A DNA stretch of 64,000 nucleotides from Umbelopsis ramanniana AG (taxonomy: Eukaryota; Mucoromycota; Umbelopsidomycetes; Umbelopsidales; Umbelopsidaceae): assembly GCF_025399195.1 (NCBI RefSeq), contig NW_026252146.1, positions 1 to 64,000 on the forward strand, given 5' to 3'. The notes beneath the pieces were generated by a model. The model was not told the origin of the DNA. It saw only the letters and a program-made list of their open reading frames with translations, and searched no databases. Made by a program: the position numbers and the translations under genes. This document shows positions 3,411-59,693 of the stretch, in pieces (the stretch's first letter is position 1; each line of letters begins with the position of its first letter).

Positions 3411-4658
3411 TCATGCATCGCGTCTTGTCATAGTTCGCCCCCGCGAAGGAGATCTGCTATATGATGACCGGCGGCGACGATAGGTATCTCTACTACGCCG
3501 CCTTTGCCGCGATGATCGATCGGGACTCAAGCTTGATTCCCTTTGCCGTCTAGATGATGGTGAGCTGATATCTCTACGAGATGGGCTTGGGCTGCTCTTT
3601 CTCTGCTTGTCGGCTGGGCTTATACTGCGATGGCGTTTGCCGTGTGTGTGAGAACTTCTGCGAGGGCTTCTGCTGTACCTGCGCGGACTCCTACTACGCC
3701 TACGTGGACTTCTGCTACGAGATTCATGTTTTCTATTCGTTGATGAGATTTTGCTTGACTTATCCACAATTGTATCATCTCGTCGGGCTGGGCGGCCGCG
3801 TTCGTCTCGAACACGGTTTTTATAGTGTCGATCATCTTCGCTTTCATCACTATACAGATCACGAGAATGTTTACGGCTGTGCTTGTGCTTATGTGAGTGC
3901 TTCTTTCGCTTCTTCTTATCTTTGCTCTTCTTTTCTTTTCGTCTGCTTTTACTATCTTCCTCGTCAGAACCATCTTGGCGTTGGTCAAGCTGTGGTCTAG
4001 CGGTATAATTAATAGGTATGGCGTTCGATGACGAGCCAGGCAAGACTTCCCTAGAAGCACCTGATGATTGCGCCATACGATTATTTGCATTACTGATAGA
4101 GTTTGTCTTAATTATCTGATGTAGGCTGTTAAATATTACTTGTTATCACTTACTGTCCGTATCCAAGGCCCTTGTCTTCCATAGTAGGATCTTGATCTTC
4201 GTCGTTCATTTTCAAAGCATTCTTGAGGTCTTGTTGAGTGACATTTCCACTCCCGGTGTTCTTTTTCTTGCCACCCAAAGCAACAGCTAGTGCATCAGCT
4301 TCTGCTTCCTTTATTCGCCGCAGTTCCTCCGCCGCCGCCCTTTTCTTTGCCTCTTCTGAATTTTTATCCTTAGCATACCAAGTCAAATCCTTGCCTAATG
4401 TACAAATATATTTAGCTTTTCACCAACCGATAAACGAAATACGGAACGTAATCAATGTTTACCTTGCTGCCAACGCCCGACCGGTGCCATTAGAGAATGG
4501 CCAAGGTAGTTTTCACGAAACTTGTCATCTTTCACTGACTCCCAGGTAAACTGTTTTAGACAAATATTAGCATATTTTTGAACTCAACATATCTCATTAG
4601 TCGATGCGCCTACCTGATCCTGACCGCCTCGTACGCCGCCTCTTGTTGGATGGTACAT
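3411..4658 (-). CDS. MMTAG2: MMTAG2-domain protein (C1orf35 homologue)
   Basis: Nuclear basic protein carrying the MMTAG (multiple myeloma tumour-associated protein 2) N-terminal domain; the molecular role of the family is poorly known. Four exons on the minus strand: 4658-4614, 4550-4463, 4394-4154, 4092-3411; 351 aa. Diagnostic segments are [10 protein letters not shown] at residues 6-15, then [28 protein letters not shown] and KDLTWYAK, in the same order as the human protein. The C-terminal half is a Lys/His/Ser/Arg-rich stretch with [15 protein letters not shown]-type repeats, so an association with splicing factors is plausible. An ORF continues upstream of ATG 4658, but the human protein also starts a few residues before [10 protein letters not shown], so that start was kept. 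It shares an upstream region with the snoRNA host transcript, which runs the other way. Confidence 0.9.
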
Positions 4659-4770
4659 TGTGAAGAGGCCTTGGAGGGACTGTCCTTTGCCGAATTTGAG
4701 ATTCCGCTTCACTGCAGTGGCTTGGCCCGTGACCACGTTTCTTTGACTAAAAAATTTTTTCGCGTGTCGC

Positions 4771-4780
4771 ATATAAAAAT
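4771..4780 (+). promoter_or_regulatory. TATA box of the snoRNA host transcript
   Basis: ATATAAAAAT lies about 30 bases before the likely start of the plus-strand transcript whose first donor is at 4830. The MMTAG2-like gene starts at 4658 on the other strand, so this 110-170 bp interval is probably a bidirectional promoter. Confidence 0.5.
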
Positions 4781-4871
4781 GGTCTGCATCTTCGCAACTT
4801 ACAGATTTCGCTATCAAAGCAACTAAATGGTAAGCAACACAAATTTCTTAATATAATAATATAGACCTTTC

Positions 4872-4954
4872 AACGTTGATGAGACAACAATATATCTTTA
4901 ATCCTGAAGATGCCATGTGGAACAACCAATGGAATTCCTCGATTCTGAGTCGTT
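4872..4954 (+). ncRNA. snR57: C/D box snoRNA, snR57-like (18S G1572 guide)
   Basis: It lies in intron 1 of the host transcript. Box C is TTGATGA (4876-4882), box D' CTGA (4904-4907) and box D CTGA (4945-4948). A terminal stem AACG (4872-4875) pairs with CGTT (4951-4954). The guide GGAATTCCTCG (4931-4941) is perfectly complementary to the conserved 18S segment CGAGGAATTCC. By the box-D-plus-five rule C4940 pairs with the first G of CGAGG, yeast G1572, the snR57 target (three bases before the Bud23 site G1575). The first base of box C deviates from RUGAUGA. Boxes, stem and guide are seen directly; the target sequence and numbering come from memory of yeast rRNA. Confidence 0.8.
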
Positions 4955-5113
4955 CTCCTAGACCATCCTTCGCATCATTCATTTGATTATTACGTATGTT
5001 CTAACCTTTTCACCTCAGATTTCAATAGCATTGGCTTAGCAAGTTGCTCATCCATCCGATCCATATAAGGTATTTGTCTTCACTTTTACTATGGCGAAGA
5101 GCATAGTAGACGA

Positions 5114-5131
5114 GCCCCAAGAATTTGGGGC
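5114..5131 (+). repeat. Perfect 7-bp hairpin in host intron 2
   Basis: GCCCCAA and TTGGGGC flank a GAAT loop. This strong inverted repeat sits just upstream of the snR55-like snoRNA inside the same intron. It might be a processing signal or part of an extended snoRNA fold; no function is shown. Confidence 0.45.
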
Positions 5132-5139
5132 GCACCCGT

Positions 5140-5217
5140 ATGACGATTTGCTTATAGAAATAATCATGAAAAAAGATGATTAGAATCAGTAAACATGCAC
5201 CACCATCTGACATCGTC
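5140..5217 (+). ncRNA. snR55: C/D box snoRNA, snR55/U33-like (18S U1269 guide)
   Basis: It lies in intron 2 of the host transcript. Box D is CTGA at 5207-5210. The guide CATGCACCACCA (5194-5205) is complementary to the conserved 18S segment TGGTGGTGCATG. The fifth base before box D (A5202) faces the U that is yeast U1269 and human U1326, the target of snR55 and U33. Human U33 ends with almost the same guide and box. An internal C'-like AGATGAT lies at 5175-5181. The 5' boundary is less certain: the best box C is ATGACGA (5140-5146, one mismatch), and GACGAT (5142-5147) can pair with ATCGTC (5212-5217). Confidence 0.72.
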
Positions 5218-5411
5218 TACCATGCTCTAGCCTTCGCGGTCTCATCTTTACCAACATAATTCTAATACATTCTTGAATTTAGATCTCACTCAGACTATAT
5301 GGAAAGGAGAAATGCTCAATGCTTTCAAAGCCTGTTCAGTGGCGATCGTAAATGGTAAGCATCTCATACTTTTCATTCTTGCTGCATCGAGCTACTGTGG
5401 TCAAAAGTGAC

Positions 5412-5500
5412 GCTTCAATGATGAAATATGGAATTTCGAACACGCCAGTTCTGCTTCTGACAATTCTTGAAGAAAATCTCCATCGCTAAACTGAACAAGC
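5412..5500 (+). ncRNA. snR61: C/D box snoRNA, snR61/U38-like (25S A1133 guide)
   Basis: It lies in intron 3 of the host transcript. Box C is a perfect ATGATGA (5418-5424), box D' CTGA (5457-5460) and box D CTGA (5491-5494). The terminal stem GCTT (5412-5415) pairs with AAGC (5497-5500). The D' guide CGCCAGTTCTGCTT (5443-5456) is a 14-nt perfect complement of the conserved 25S/28S segment AAGCAGAACTGGCG. The fifth base before D' (T5452) pairs with the A that is yeast A1133, target of snR61 and of human U38. The region before box D (about 5473-5490) is a possible second guide with no target that I recognise. Confidence 0.85.
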
Positions 5501-5611
5501 ACACTTGACCATAGTAGACGCTCTTTGCTTTGTGCAATTTTTTCCGTCTCAACATTACATGTGTATTAACAAAATTTCTATCTACAGTAAGTTTGAAGAA
5601 ATGTTGATATG

Positions 5612-6049
5612 GTAAGGGCTATACGACGAGGATCTTCCAAGATTTTAGTCAATGTAGTTTTAAATTTGTAGACTTGTTATATTCTTGCTTGATACTGCAC
5701 AGTATGCAAGACTAAGCGGTAATAAAAATGCCTTTAAAAAATAATCTAAATCTCCATAAGCCCTCATTTTCTCGTGCGATTACAAAGTTGTTGTATAAAT
5801 TGAATCATGAAGGTATTGCTCAGTAAGTAGATTGGAGTTCTCCAATTTGCATGATGTCTGTTTTGATGAATATGATTATTTTCTATATGGTGGTGGGTCA
5901 CTCATGTTAAGGGTTAAATTCTAGATACTGCAAAATGTACATTCATAGCGAAGATTAATATCCTCAAACTCTTGTAAAGTGAAAGACTGGGAAATGATAA
6001 AGCAGAAGCTATGTTCTTAAGCGTATCAGTGTTGGTATGGGGAATATAA
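5612..6049. other. Interval between snoRNA host and VPS54
   Basis: AT-rich, with no ORF or C/D box pair. It holds the undefined 3' part of the host transcript and the 3' flank of VPS54. A hairpin-forming stretch (about 5682-5710, CTTGC...GCAAG) followed by AGACTA could be part of an H/ACA RNA, but no convincing ACA tail or pseudouridylation pocket was found. Confidence 0.4.
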
Positions 6050-9000
6050 TCATGAAGCGTCCAACTTTGGAGTATTCTTCGGGGGAGTAGCCAGCGTTAG
6101 TTGCTGCGCTGCTTCGGCGATGGATGATGAGGGCGCTTGAGTATGCTCCAGAGCTGATAATTTATCGATAAAGTACTGAGCATCACCAATGACCCTGCAT
6201 TGAAAAGAGTACGCATAAGCCTTACAATATGAGGATGCCGACATTGATTGTTGTGTACTTACCTTTCCTTTCCAGCCGCCGTTGTTACAGTCAATCTGCT
6301 GTATTCTTGTGCTAATTGATTAGCAAAGGATGAAAAGACTTGATCCATGACAAACTAGGATGCACATAACGAGTTTGTTAGTCCATTCGGTAAGAAATTT
6401 TACAAAGGCAGCCATGAAAGTCGGTATACCTTCAAGTCATGAGGTGGAAGATATTTGTTCAGAACTTTGTGTAGCGTAGTGGTTTCTTTTACTAATGTTT
6501 CCATGTATGCACTAGGGGATTTGGCATTTCTGTTCGGTGCATCCCAATTCATTGTCTGTTGCACCTTGAGTCAGTTCTTGAATCGCATATAGTCACTCCA
6601 TTAAGACATAATACACGTACCTGCATAGACTTCATATGCACATCGAATCTTTCGTTCATAATAGCGATAAGTTTAGCATGGATTTCTCCTTGGTGATTTT
6701 GGTAATCCTTGAGCATTCGATCGAATTCAGATAATAAGACGACTTGTTTCTCGGCTATGCATCGTCGTACACATTCTTTCAACAGAGGTATTAACGTTAT
6801 CATGATACCGACCGATTGTGACGCCAAGGCTAAAATCATGGTTAGTTTATGCTTTGAACCCTTGGAGCCCTTCTAAGGAACTCAAAAAACTTACCAAGAT
6901 GCCTTGCCGATATATTTTTGAGTCCAGCTGAACGCATCGCACCGGCACCGAGAATGACTTGACAGACTCTTGAGTTGAATAGCTATGTGCACACAAACGT
7001 CAGTAACAGCCAAACTATCTGAAGATCGTACAATGGCTGCATATCGTTTACCTTGAGCAGTTCTATCATCTTTTGCATTATATCGACTGTCATGCCGTCT
7101 AATCTGATCATACACTTGATATAATCTTCCATCATCTTGATGATGAGCAAGCTACATCCAACAACAAAATAGCTTTGGTCACCAATGTGAAGGAACTTGG
7201 TAGGCTCGGATTGGTTTTTGACGGCTCCGGAAGACTGTCCAGTATTGCTGTCAGCAGCAGGAAAGAAAGTCTCCGTCATGAACTTTTTGTCAAGATCCTT
7301 TGCGCCTGCCACAGCACTTATCCGTCCAATGATATCTTGGAAGTCTTGTGGCACTTCGGTGGAACTCCATTGCTCGTTCTCGATAAGAAGCGCTTCCTGC
7401 TTTGTCCGTTCCATGTGGAAATTATTGATGAATGCCTTTGTCTATTTGGTACGAACAATATCAGAATTCATCCATCCATTTTTTACTAACTAAAAATAGC
7501 TTACGATACTGTACCTGCGAAATAATAGCCCCTCGAAGACCAAAGCTCGTCCGACCACACATTTTCTCGCTACTGTTGATGAATGCCCAGGTAGCGTCAA
7601 AGAATCGGTAAAAATCGGTTGGATTGAGTTGAGCATTTTGATCGGCGCGCGCGCCAACAAGTTTTGCACAACGGACATGCCCCATATCTGCAACGGCGAA
7701 GATGGTAGAGTTTGAATCTTGGATCAAGTCATTCACAACAACTCCATGGCTTTTCTCATGCGGTGGAGAGGACATTTGGTTTTGCGTAGGACTGGTATAT
7801 GAGTGTGGATCATAGTCATGAAACAGATGTCGTGATTGGGCATCGTCAAACAGTTCTTTCAATATCGAATGATAGCCAATGGACCTCTCAATCGCCGCTA
7901 TGATGACAGCGTATATGGCAATCAAAGTCTTGAAGAAATTATCGAATGGCATGGATTTAAGTTGCTTAGACAATCCGCTTCTTGAAGGGTTAGTTCATCA
8001 AGGCTCTTGCAAAGAAAATACGATTCAAAATCAACAACAAATACCTGCTTTCTTTCGCGGTGCCTATATCTTGTTCATTAGCTTCAGATGCATCCGCAAA
8101 TGGCAGAGGGTATTGCTAATGGGTACAAAATGATTAGTTTTCGCCATGGGGAAAAAGGAATACTCTGTCGAGGCATACCTTCGTAATACTGGCTTTCAGC
8201 TCGCTCAATAGTCGCTCCCGGTATATATGTAGAGACCTCTTCACTTGTTTCGATCGTACTAATCCCATTGTAGCAGGAGCGATACGATCTTTCAACAAAT
8301 CAAAGTCTTTTGAACGGGTGGTCTCCAGCATTGATGGTGAGCGAACTGACCCATATGTTCTGGATGTTGCGGAAGTGAGAACAGAAACGAGAATTCCTTG
8401 CGATGCTGCATCCATGTCCAACCCATCTATATACATGGTGAAGTCGCTAACAAGGCTGTTAATGAAGTCGTGTTCCATGATATTTCCCACAGCAATATAC
8501 ATTTCGTCTAGTTGGGAAGAAAAATTCAACAAAGCTCGAACAGCCTGCATATCCAGCTTTGGTACTAATTTCGAATTTCCAATTTGAGGTCGCCGTACTA
8601 CTGTTGTGTCCTGCTTGGCGGAAGCATCTTCACCATCATCTTCGTAATCAGTGGAGTCGCTCCCAGACAGCTTTGATTTTGCATCATCAATCAAATCCAA
8701 TGCCGCAAAGAAGTCTCCTTGATTTAACAATATTTGAATCATTGGTTGGGATGATCGTATTTCCTTGACCATCTGAATGCCATTATATAATAATCCAATG
8801 TTTGTTCGACGACGCTGTAAGGATACCACCTTCAACCCCGATTCACATTGCTGCTGCTGAGTTTCCTTCATGTTCTGCCGAATAGAATGGATCTGTGATA
8901 CACAATCCAACGTTTCTTGATGCAATGCTTGTAAGTTTGAAAGGGCTTCGAAAAATTGGGCAGATCGTTTGGATATTTCTTGAATCAAATGAACTTCGAC

Positions 9001-9996
9001 CGTATCTAGGTAATGAGACAGCTTTTCTTGTAAGATGCTGTTTGTGCTTGTAGGTGGATTAGGTCCACTATGCCCTACGATATCCGCTCCTTCACAGACC
9101 GCGTCAAAAGTTCGAGGATTTTCCAACTGAAAATTTGGCTCAAAGAAGATGGATGGAACATTTTCAAGCATGGGCATGTCGTATTCCTGTGACTGAAGGT
9201 TTGGCGAAAGCTCCAGGTCATCCAGGTTCTCAAGGGACATAATGTTGGGTATACCATACGGATTACGGCCAATTCCAGGAATGGATTCGTTGCTTTTGTC
9301 GTGACCATCCTCTAACAATGGTGGAAGAGTGCTGAATTGAGTATCGGTTGATGAAATATTAGGCGTTCCCTCGGTACCTTGCGTCTTGTTCTGATGGTAA
9401 CGTTGGTACACGTTGGATATGTAGTTTATATAGGAATCAAAATCGGAGCTTTTGACCTTGGGTATGGACGCGTGCGATACAGGTGGAATCTCAGCTTTTC
9501 TTGCTTTTGGCGGTTGAACACTTCGTTTGCCAGGATCGTTTAATACACCTGTATTGTACATCATATCATTGTTAGTTGCTTTCTCCGTTTACAGTGTCGA
9601 AGGCTATAGATAAACTTTGAACAAACCCGAGATTGCATTGAAACCGATATCTTTCGTTGTCCAGGGCAACGATGTTTCACTCATTGTACTGAAATTGGCA
9701 AACGCAGACTGTCGTCGGCTGTGGCCGCCACTAAGTATACGATTTAACGATCTTCCTTGCGATGAGCCTGAGTGTGATGAAGCAGGCCGGCTCCCAGAAT
9801 TTGATCTGTGCGGAGATCCTCCCATCAAGTGAGATTCATCTTTGAATGCATGCTCTCTGATATAGTTAGGAGCTGTTGGTTGTCTGGGCGGCAAAGTTGC
9901 TGTGATATGAGGAGACCCTGCCAGCGCTGTTAGTTTTGGCGTAGAAGATGAGGCTCGCGGGTCACCATTTGGAGTCCCCGGCGGCGATGTAGGCAT
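6050..9996 (-). CDS. VPS54: Vps54, GARP tethering complex subunit
   Basis: Subunit of the Golgi-associated retrograde protein (GARP) complex, which tethers endosome-derived vesicles at the trans-Golgi. Ten exons on the minus strand: 9996-9627, 9548-8179, 8115-8045, 7980-7515, 7441-7052, 6982-6895, 6829-6621, 6564-6430, 6354-6263, 6194-6050; 1,111 aa. Residues 1-125 are Ser/Pro-rich and disordered, then SSDFDSYINYISNVYQRY. VPSIFFEPNFQLENPRTF and a long coiled coil (HYLDTVEVHLIQEISKRSAQFF onward) match the Vps54 N-terminal domain. ERTKQEALLIENEQW and FQDII precede the conserved C-terminal Vps54 domain, which includes YQNHQGEIHAKLIAIMNERF. The start of exon 8 could instead be 6555 (two in-frame CAG/AAG acceptors). 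Length and order fit the family. Confidence 0.93.
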
Positions 9997-59383: not shown

Positions 59384-59621
59384 AAATTTCGATATAGAAT
59401 ACTCCCTACCCTTAGTATATTATGTACTTTTTGTTAAGCGAAATAGCTAATCTGTAAATTAAAAAGTTTTGGTTTTATCATATGAACTTGGAATCTCACG
59501 AGAAGTTCACTCGTCTGCATGATAATACAATAAGTCGTAGAATTTTCAAAAACGACGACATTATTCTGCTCATAGTTAAAAGAAAAAAAAAAATTACTAG
59601 CTTGCTGTGCTCAGCAAAAAT

Positions 59622-59693
59622 GAAGCTACCAGGGGTCGAACCTGGAATCTCTTGATTCGTAGTCAAGCGCCTTGTCCATTGGGCCATAGCTCC
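59622..59693 (-). tRNA. trnR(ACG): tRNA-Arg (anticodon ACG), no intron
   Basis: Full cloverleaf on the minus strand. The acceptor stem pairs GGAGCTA with TAGCTTC (one G-U), the discriminator is A at 59621. The D arm has TGGCCCAATGGACAAGGC, the anticodon stem is CTTGA/TCAAG with loop CTACGAA (anticodon ACG), the variable loop is AGATT, and the T arm is CCAGG-TTCGACC-CCTGG (B box GGTTCGACCC). It reads CGU and, as inosine, CGC and CGA. A run of T on the minus strand (complement of 59582-59592) can serve as the pol III terminator. Confidence 0.95.

Follow-up and report, generated by a model that had tools for sequence, protein, structure and literature searches.

In Saccharomyces cerevisiae the C/D box small nucleolar RNAs (snoRNAs) snR57, snR55 and snR61 are encoded, in this order, in a polycistronic cluster that is processed by RNase III. 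The same trio in the same order is recognized here in a 64,000-nucleotide (nt) stretch of the Umbelopsis ramanniana AG genome (contig NW_026252146.1, positions 1 to 64,000; hereafter the window), and the locus very probably represents the host gene of fungal snoRNA cluster II in the intronic arrangement that is usual for it, with an snR57-, an snR55- and an snR61-type snoRNA, one in each of three introns. The name cluster II was given to snR57-snR55-snR61 by Luo et al. (2013, PMC3596301), whose survey of three clusters predicted 323 of the 460 snoRNAs analysed to be intronic and confirmed 83 introns by comparison with expressed sequence tags and/or by reverse transcription-PCR. According to that survey, every snoRNA of the three clusters lies in an intron in the Euascomycetes, Basidiomycota and Rhizopus oryzae examined, whereas those of S. 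cerevisiae and its close relatives are derived from unspliced transcripts, a state that the authors explain by de-intronization with degenerated splice sites. The spliced hosts are described as poorly conserved and as having no long open reading frames (ORFs).

Comparison of our locus with the cluster II of Luo et al. (PMC3596301) shows the same trio, order, intronic placement and non-coding host. Only minor features set our locus apart, namely possible external stems, a different species and perhaps its internal exons, which measure 51 and 72 nt. The S. cerevisiae trio differs in being non-intronic and in originating from an unspliced precursor (PMC3596301). In Candida, cluster II likewise lies in introns of a non-coding transcript, there supported by RNA-seq, but in contrast to the Umbelopsis gene its internal exons have nearly disappeared (negative, zero or 1 nt), splicing is described as nested or recursive, and its snR61 is an snR61/U45 hybrid (PMC5033589). 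Neurospora crassa CD34 and CD38, which are of the snR55 and snR61 types, are both reported to be intronic and to lie on chromosome IV, and the Neurospora clusters I-V are described as conserved with yeast and as having hosts that carry short ORFs only (PMC2780460). Unlike the locus described here, Euascomycetes, the group of Neurospora, are reported to have lost snR57 from cluster II (PMC3596301).

Because the same trio has already been described in introns of many fungi, the Umbelopsis locus is another, ordinary case of a gene type already on record, and the claim of novelty fails. The initial annotation had proposed an ancient linkage whose mode of expression changed, which is correct but was published by Luo et al. 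in 2013 (PMC3596301); its remark that no description of the host gene was known is not a mark of novelty, as this kind of gene is described in the same paper. The locus adds one genome to the fungi with an intronic cluster II retaining all three members, which is of little value beyond annotation, and it agrees with the literature, in which the intronic arrangement is taken as ancestral and the polycistron of yeast as derived from it.

Three C/D box units and their introns

In each of the three units box C lies close to the 5' end and box D close to the 3' end; their locations are as follows.

4871..4953, + strand: snoRNA 1, snR57 type; box C TTGATGA 4876-4882, box D' CTGA 4904-4907, guide GGAATTCCTCG 4931-4941, box D CTGA 4945-4948; predicted ends
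5135..5215, + strand: snoRNA 2, snR55/U33 type; box C ATGACGA (one base from consensus) 5140-5146, guide CATGCACCACCA 5194-5205, box D CTGA 5207-5210; predicted ends
5413..5497, + strand: snoRNA 3, snR61/U38 type; box C ATGATGA 5418-5424, guide CGCCAGTTCTGCT 5443-5455, box D' CTGA 5457-5460, box D CTGA 5491-5494; ends from the Rfam match

The guides of the three units resemble the guides in the corresponding Rfam families and, presumably, the segments of ribosomal RNA (rRNA) they would target. Each pattern of guide plus box has a single match in the window, and this match is exact although two mismatches were permitted. With the same tolerance, and for patterns that were composed after the sequence had been inspected, at least one match was obtained in 8 of 100 shuffles for snR57, 5 of 100 for snR55 and 0 of 100 for snR61, corresponding to means of 0.08, 0.05 and 0.00 matches per shuffle, respectively. 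The order snR57, snR55, snR61 follows from the guide patterns together with Rfam matches that all lie below the cut-off, that of snR57 being the weakest.

Judged by its motifs, the region between about 4795 and 5730 looks like a + strand gene of four exons, with canonical splice signals and one snoRNA in each of its three introns. The branch-like motif given for each intron is the one closest to the acceptor.

4772..4779, + strand: TATA-like motif, putative, upstream of the presumed transcript start
4795..4829, + strand: exon 1; 5' end assumed
4830..5018, + strand: intron 1, 189 nt; GTAAGC...CCTCAG, branch-like CTAAC at 5001
5019..5069, + strand: exon 2, 51 nt; from splice motifs
5070..5282, + strand: intron 2, 213 nt; GTATTT...ATTTAG, branch-like CTAAT at 5262
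5283..5354, + strand: exon 3, 72 nt; from splice motifs
5355..5587, + strand: intron 3, 233 nt; GTAAGC...CTACAG, branch-like TTAAC at 5566
5588..5730, + strand: exon 4; AATAAA at 5721, 3' end assumed (5760 taken as the end in the ORF analysis)

The initial annotation had placed one C/D snoRNA in each of three consecutive introns with junctions at 4829/5019, 5069/5283 and 5354/5588; the boxes and splice motifs are found, the junctions are present in the sequence as it had given them, and the identity and intronic position of the trio are borne out by the guides, the order and the resemblance to Rfam families. The distance from the end of box D to the last intron base is 70, 72 and 93 nt for snoRNAs 1, 2 and 3, and that to the presumed branch A, calculated from the coordinates, is 56, 55 and 75 nt. 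The previously proposed distances of 64, 65 and 87 nt from snoRNA end to acceptor are consistent with these values if the snoRNAs end about 6 nt past box D, an end that cannot be fixed by sequence alone.

A donor-like ATG/GTAAGG is present at 5611/5612, similar to the ATG/GTAAGC at the ends of exons 1 and 3, and a fourth intron starting at 5612 is possible. No fourth snoRNA was seen by eye in 5612-6000 or in the Rfam listing, which was searched to 5900. A scan of 4650-4850 for bacterial-type promoters, a type of scan unsuited to a fungus, gave no match.

Probable release from the introns, and possible external stems

RNA polymerase II would produce a short spliced RNA without a sizeable ORF, and the three introns, once spliced out, debranched and exonucleolytically trimmed, would yield one C/D snoRNA each. 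The snR57-, snR55- and snR61-type snoRNAs would then direct methylation by fibrillarin at the equivalents of yeast 18S-G1572, 18S-U1269 and 25S-A1133, the sites listed for yeast as Gm1572/snR57, Um1269/snR55 and Am1133/snR61 (PMC5199042, PMC8307265). Splicing followed by debranching and trimming is the most likely release route; in Fusarium, loss of Dbr1 is reported to lower the five intronic snoRNAs tested and to raise the lariats containing them (PMC9606315).

Possible external stems are present in two of the introns.

5099..5227, + strand: possible external stem in intron 2; one mismatch between arms 5099-5113 and 5213-5227
5392..5517, + strand: possible external stem in intron 3; 13 uninterrupted pairs, one of them G-U, between arms 5392-5404 and 5505-5517

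In intron 2 a GCCCC/GGGGC hairpin (5114-5131) sits between the 5' arm of the stem and box C. The stem arms flank snoRNAs 2 and 3. If cleavage of these stems freed the two snoRNAs at least partly from an unspliced precursor, in the manner of the polycistron of yeast, the gene would be a mixed-mode intermediate. The statistical support for the two stems is mixed. The fold of intron 2 has a z-score of -4.10, with none of 200 shuffles equally stable, but in a contiguous-helix test, in which uninterrupted pairs only were counted and single bases were shuffled, the best helix of this intron was a different one from the external stem and was reached in 47 of 500 shuffles. The 13-pair helix of intron 3 was matched in just 1 of 500 shuffled flank pairs, whereas the whole intron 3 fold has a z-score of only -0.38 (70 of 200 shuffles equally stable). 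For intron 1 the contiguous-helix test gave no external stem, its best helix being reached in 312 of 500 shuffles, and the fold is unremarkable (z-score -0.23; 78 of 200 shuffles equally stable). Weighing further against stem cleavage, such stems are also a feature of ordinary intronic snoRNAs, and all three introns carry canonical splice sites; release by cleavage, even in part, is very improbable. It is distinctly improbable that the stems of snoRNAs 2 and 3, together with the intron 2 hairpin, provide a second, splicing-independent release and represent a state between the intronic form and the cleaved polycistron. In this gene the external stems would be, at most, aids to the assembly of small nucleolar ribonucleoproteins.

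The predicted loop of the intron 2 hairpin is GAAT, which differs from the AGNN-type loops preferred by yeast Rnt1. An 11-mer, CATAGTAGACG, occurs both in the stem of intron 2, at its 5' arm (5102-5112), and in that of intron 3, at its 3' arm (5510-5520); the arms of the two stems may therefore be able to pair with each other, and the sharing is possibly due to chance.

Identity of snoRNA 1 and coding status of the host

None of the three snoRNAs was detected by Rfam at gathering thresholds. With relaxed thresholds snoRNA 3 matches snosnR61 (RF00476) at 39.1 bits (cut-off 45, E-value 5e-4) and snoRNA 2 matches snoMe18S-Um1356 (RF00532) at 31.9 bits (cut-off 50, E-value 0.017), while a weak match of snoRNA 1 to snosnR57 (RF00474) appeared in a narrower search only (19.1 bits, cut-off 50, E-value 0.93). 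The Rfam check proposed in the initial annotation thus returned the three expected families, none of them reaching its gathering cut-off, and an annotation relying on these cut-offs would miss all three units. Other weak matches were to TtnuCD8, DdR13, TtnuCD21, snR56 and U30, with snoR26 in the narrower search.

The assignment of snoRNA 1 to snR57 is based on its guide, its place in the trio and the weak Rfam match. A U59/snR54-type guide has to be weighed against it, as snoZ159/U59 outscores snR57 on this unit (28.1 bits, below its cut-off of 39, versus 19.1 bits). However, the U59 match falls chiefly in box and spacer stretches and the U59 guide before box D' is not preserved, whereas the snR57 guide before box D is mostly preserved (GGAATTCCTCG versus GGAAUUCUUCG in the model) and the place of the unit in the trio agrees with snR57. 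A U59-type snoRNA 1 is very unlikely, and this identity was dropped on account of the guide.

The host gene has no long ORF and is apparently non-coding, as the initial annotation had it: the longest ATG ORFs across the spliced exons, with outer ends assumed at 4795 and 5760, are 27 and 20 amino acids. That one of these short ORFs encodes a conserved peptide, making the host a coding gene, is extremely unlikely given that no spliced-exon ORF exceeds 27 amino acids and that cluster II hosts described in other fungi have no long ORFs either (PMC3596301).

Copy number and genomic surroundings

Searched against the 22.8-Mb assembly, the host gene matches only itself, and the snR61 family gives one match, at the host locus and below the cut-off (29.1 bits); both searches score the best candidates only, and within this scope no second copy of the gene was found. 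The pattern of snR61 guide plus box D' also occurs in 10 stretches of viral contigs, which were taken as chance matches because all 10 lack both companion guides as well as a box C in the 40 nt upstream. Ten exact conserved rRNA words were absent from the pieces examined of contigs C104-C123, the 20 last-numbered of 123 contigs (14-35 kb), from which the first 10 kb each and a second piece of C108 and C123 were taken; the sole matches were the window's own guides on the other strand (L015).

The host gene and a - strand gene with an MMtag domain (4140-4658; PF10159, 118.3 bits) are arranged head to head, the ATG of the latter, at 4658, being about 140 bp from the assumed host transcript start. 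Downstream of the host gene, a VPS54-like gene occupies about 6500-9600 on the - strand, and a ubiquitin hydrolase-like gene (PF00443) is located at 564-2099 on the + strand. Of the 271 matches to a piece of the VPS54-like gene, 120 are listed; in this list the nearest named proteins are from Mortierella, Actinomortierella, Linnemannia and Entrophospora, with 41-43% identity, and named matches from Ascomycota and Basidiomycota rank lower, mostly with about 30% over shorter stretches, which points to a probable placement in the Mucoromycota. The protein collection also contains sequences with 84-95% identity to this piece, so that genomes of close relatives exist.

Two 5S rRNA matches were found on separate short contigs (L001, 1096-1191; L002, 404-499). 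As the examined pieces of these two contigs contain no exact conserved rRNA words, these 5S genes may be unlinked to the ribosomal DNA. The window itself also contains a transfer RNA gene, tRNA-Arg (ACG), at 59621-59693 on the - strand.
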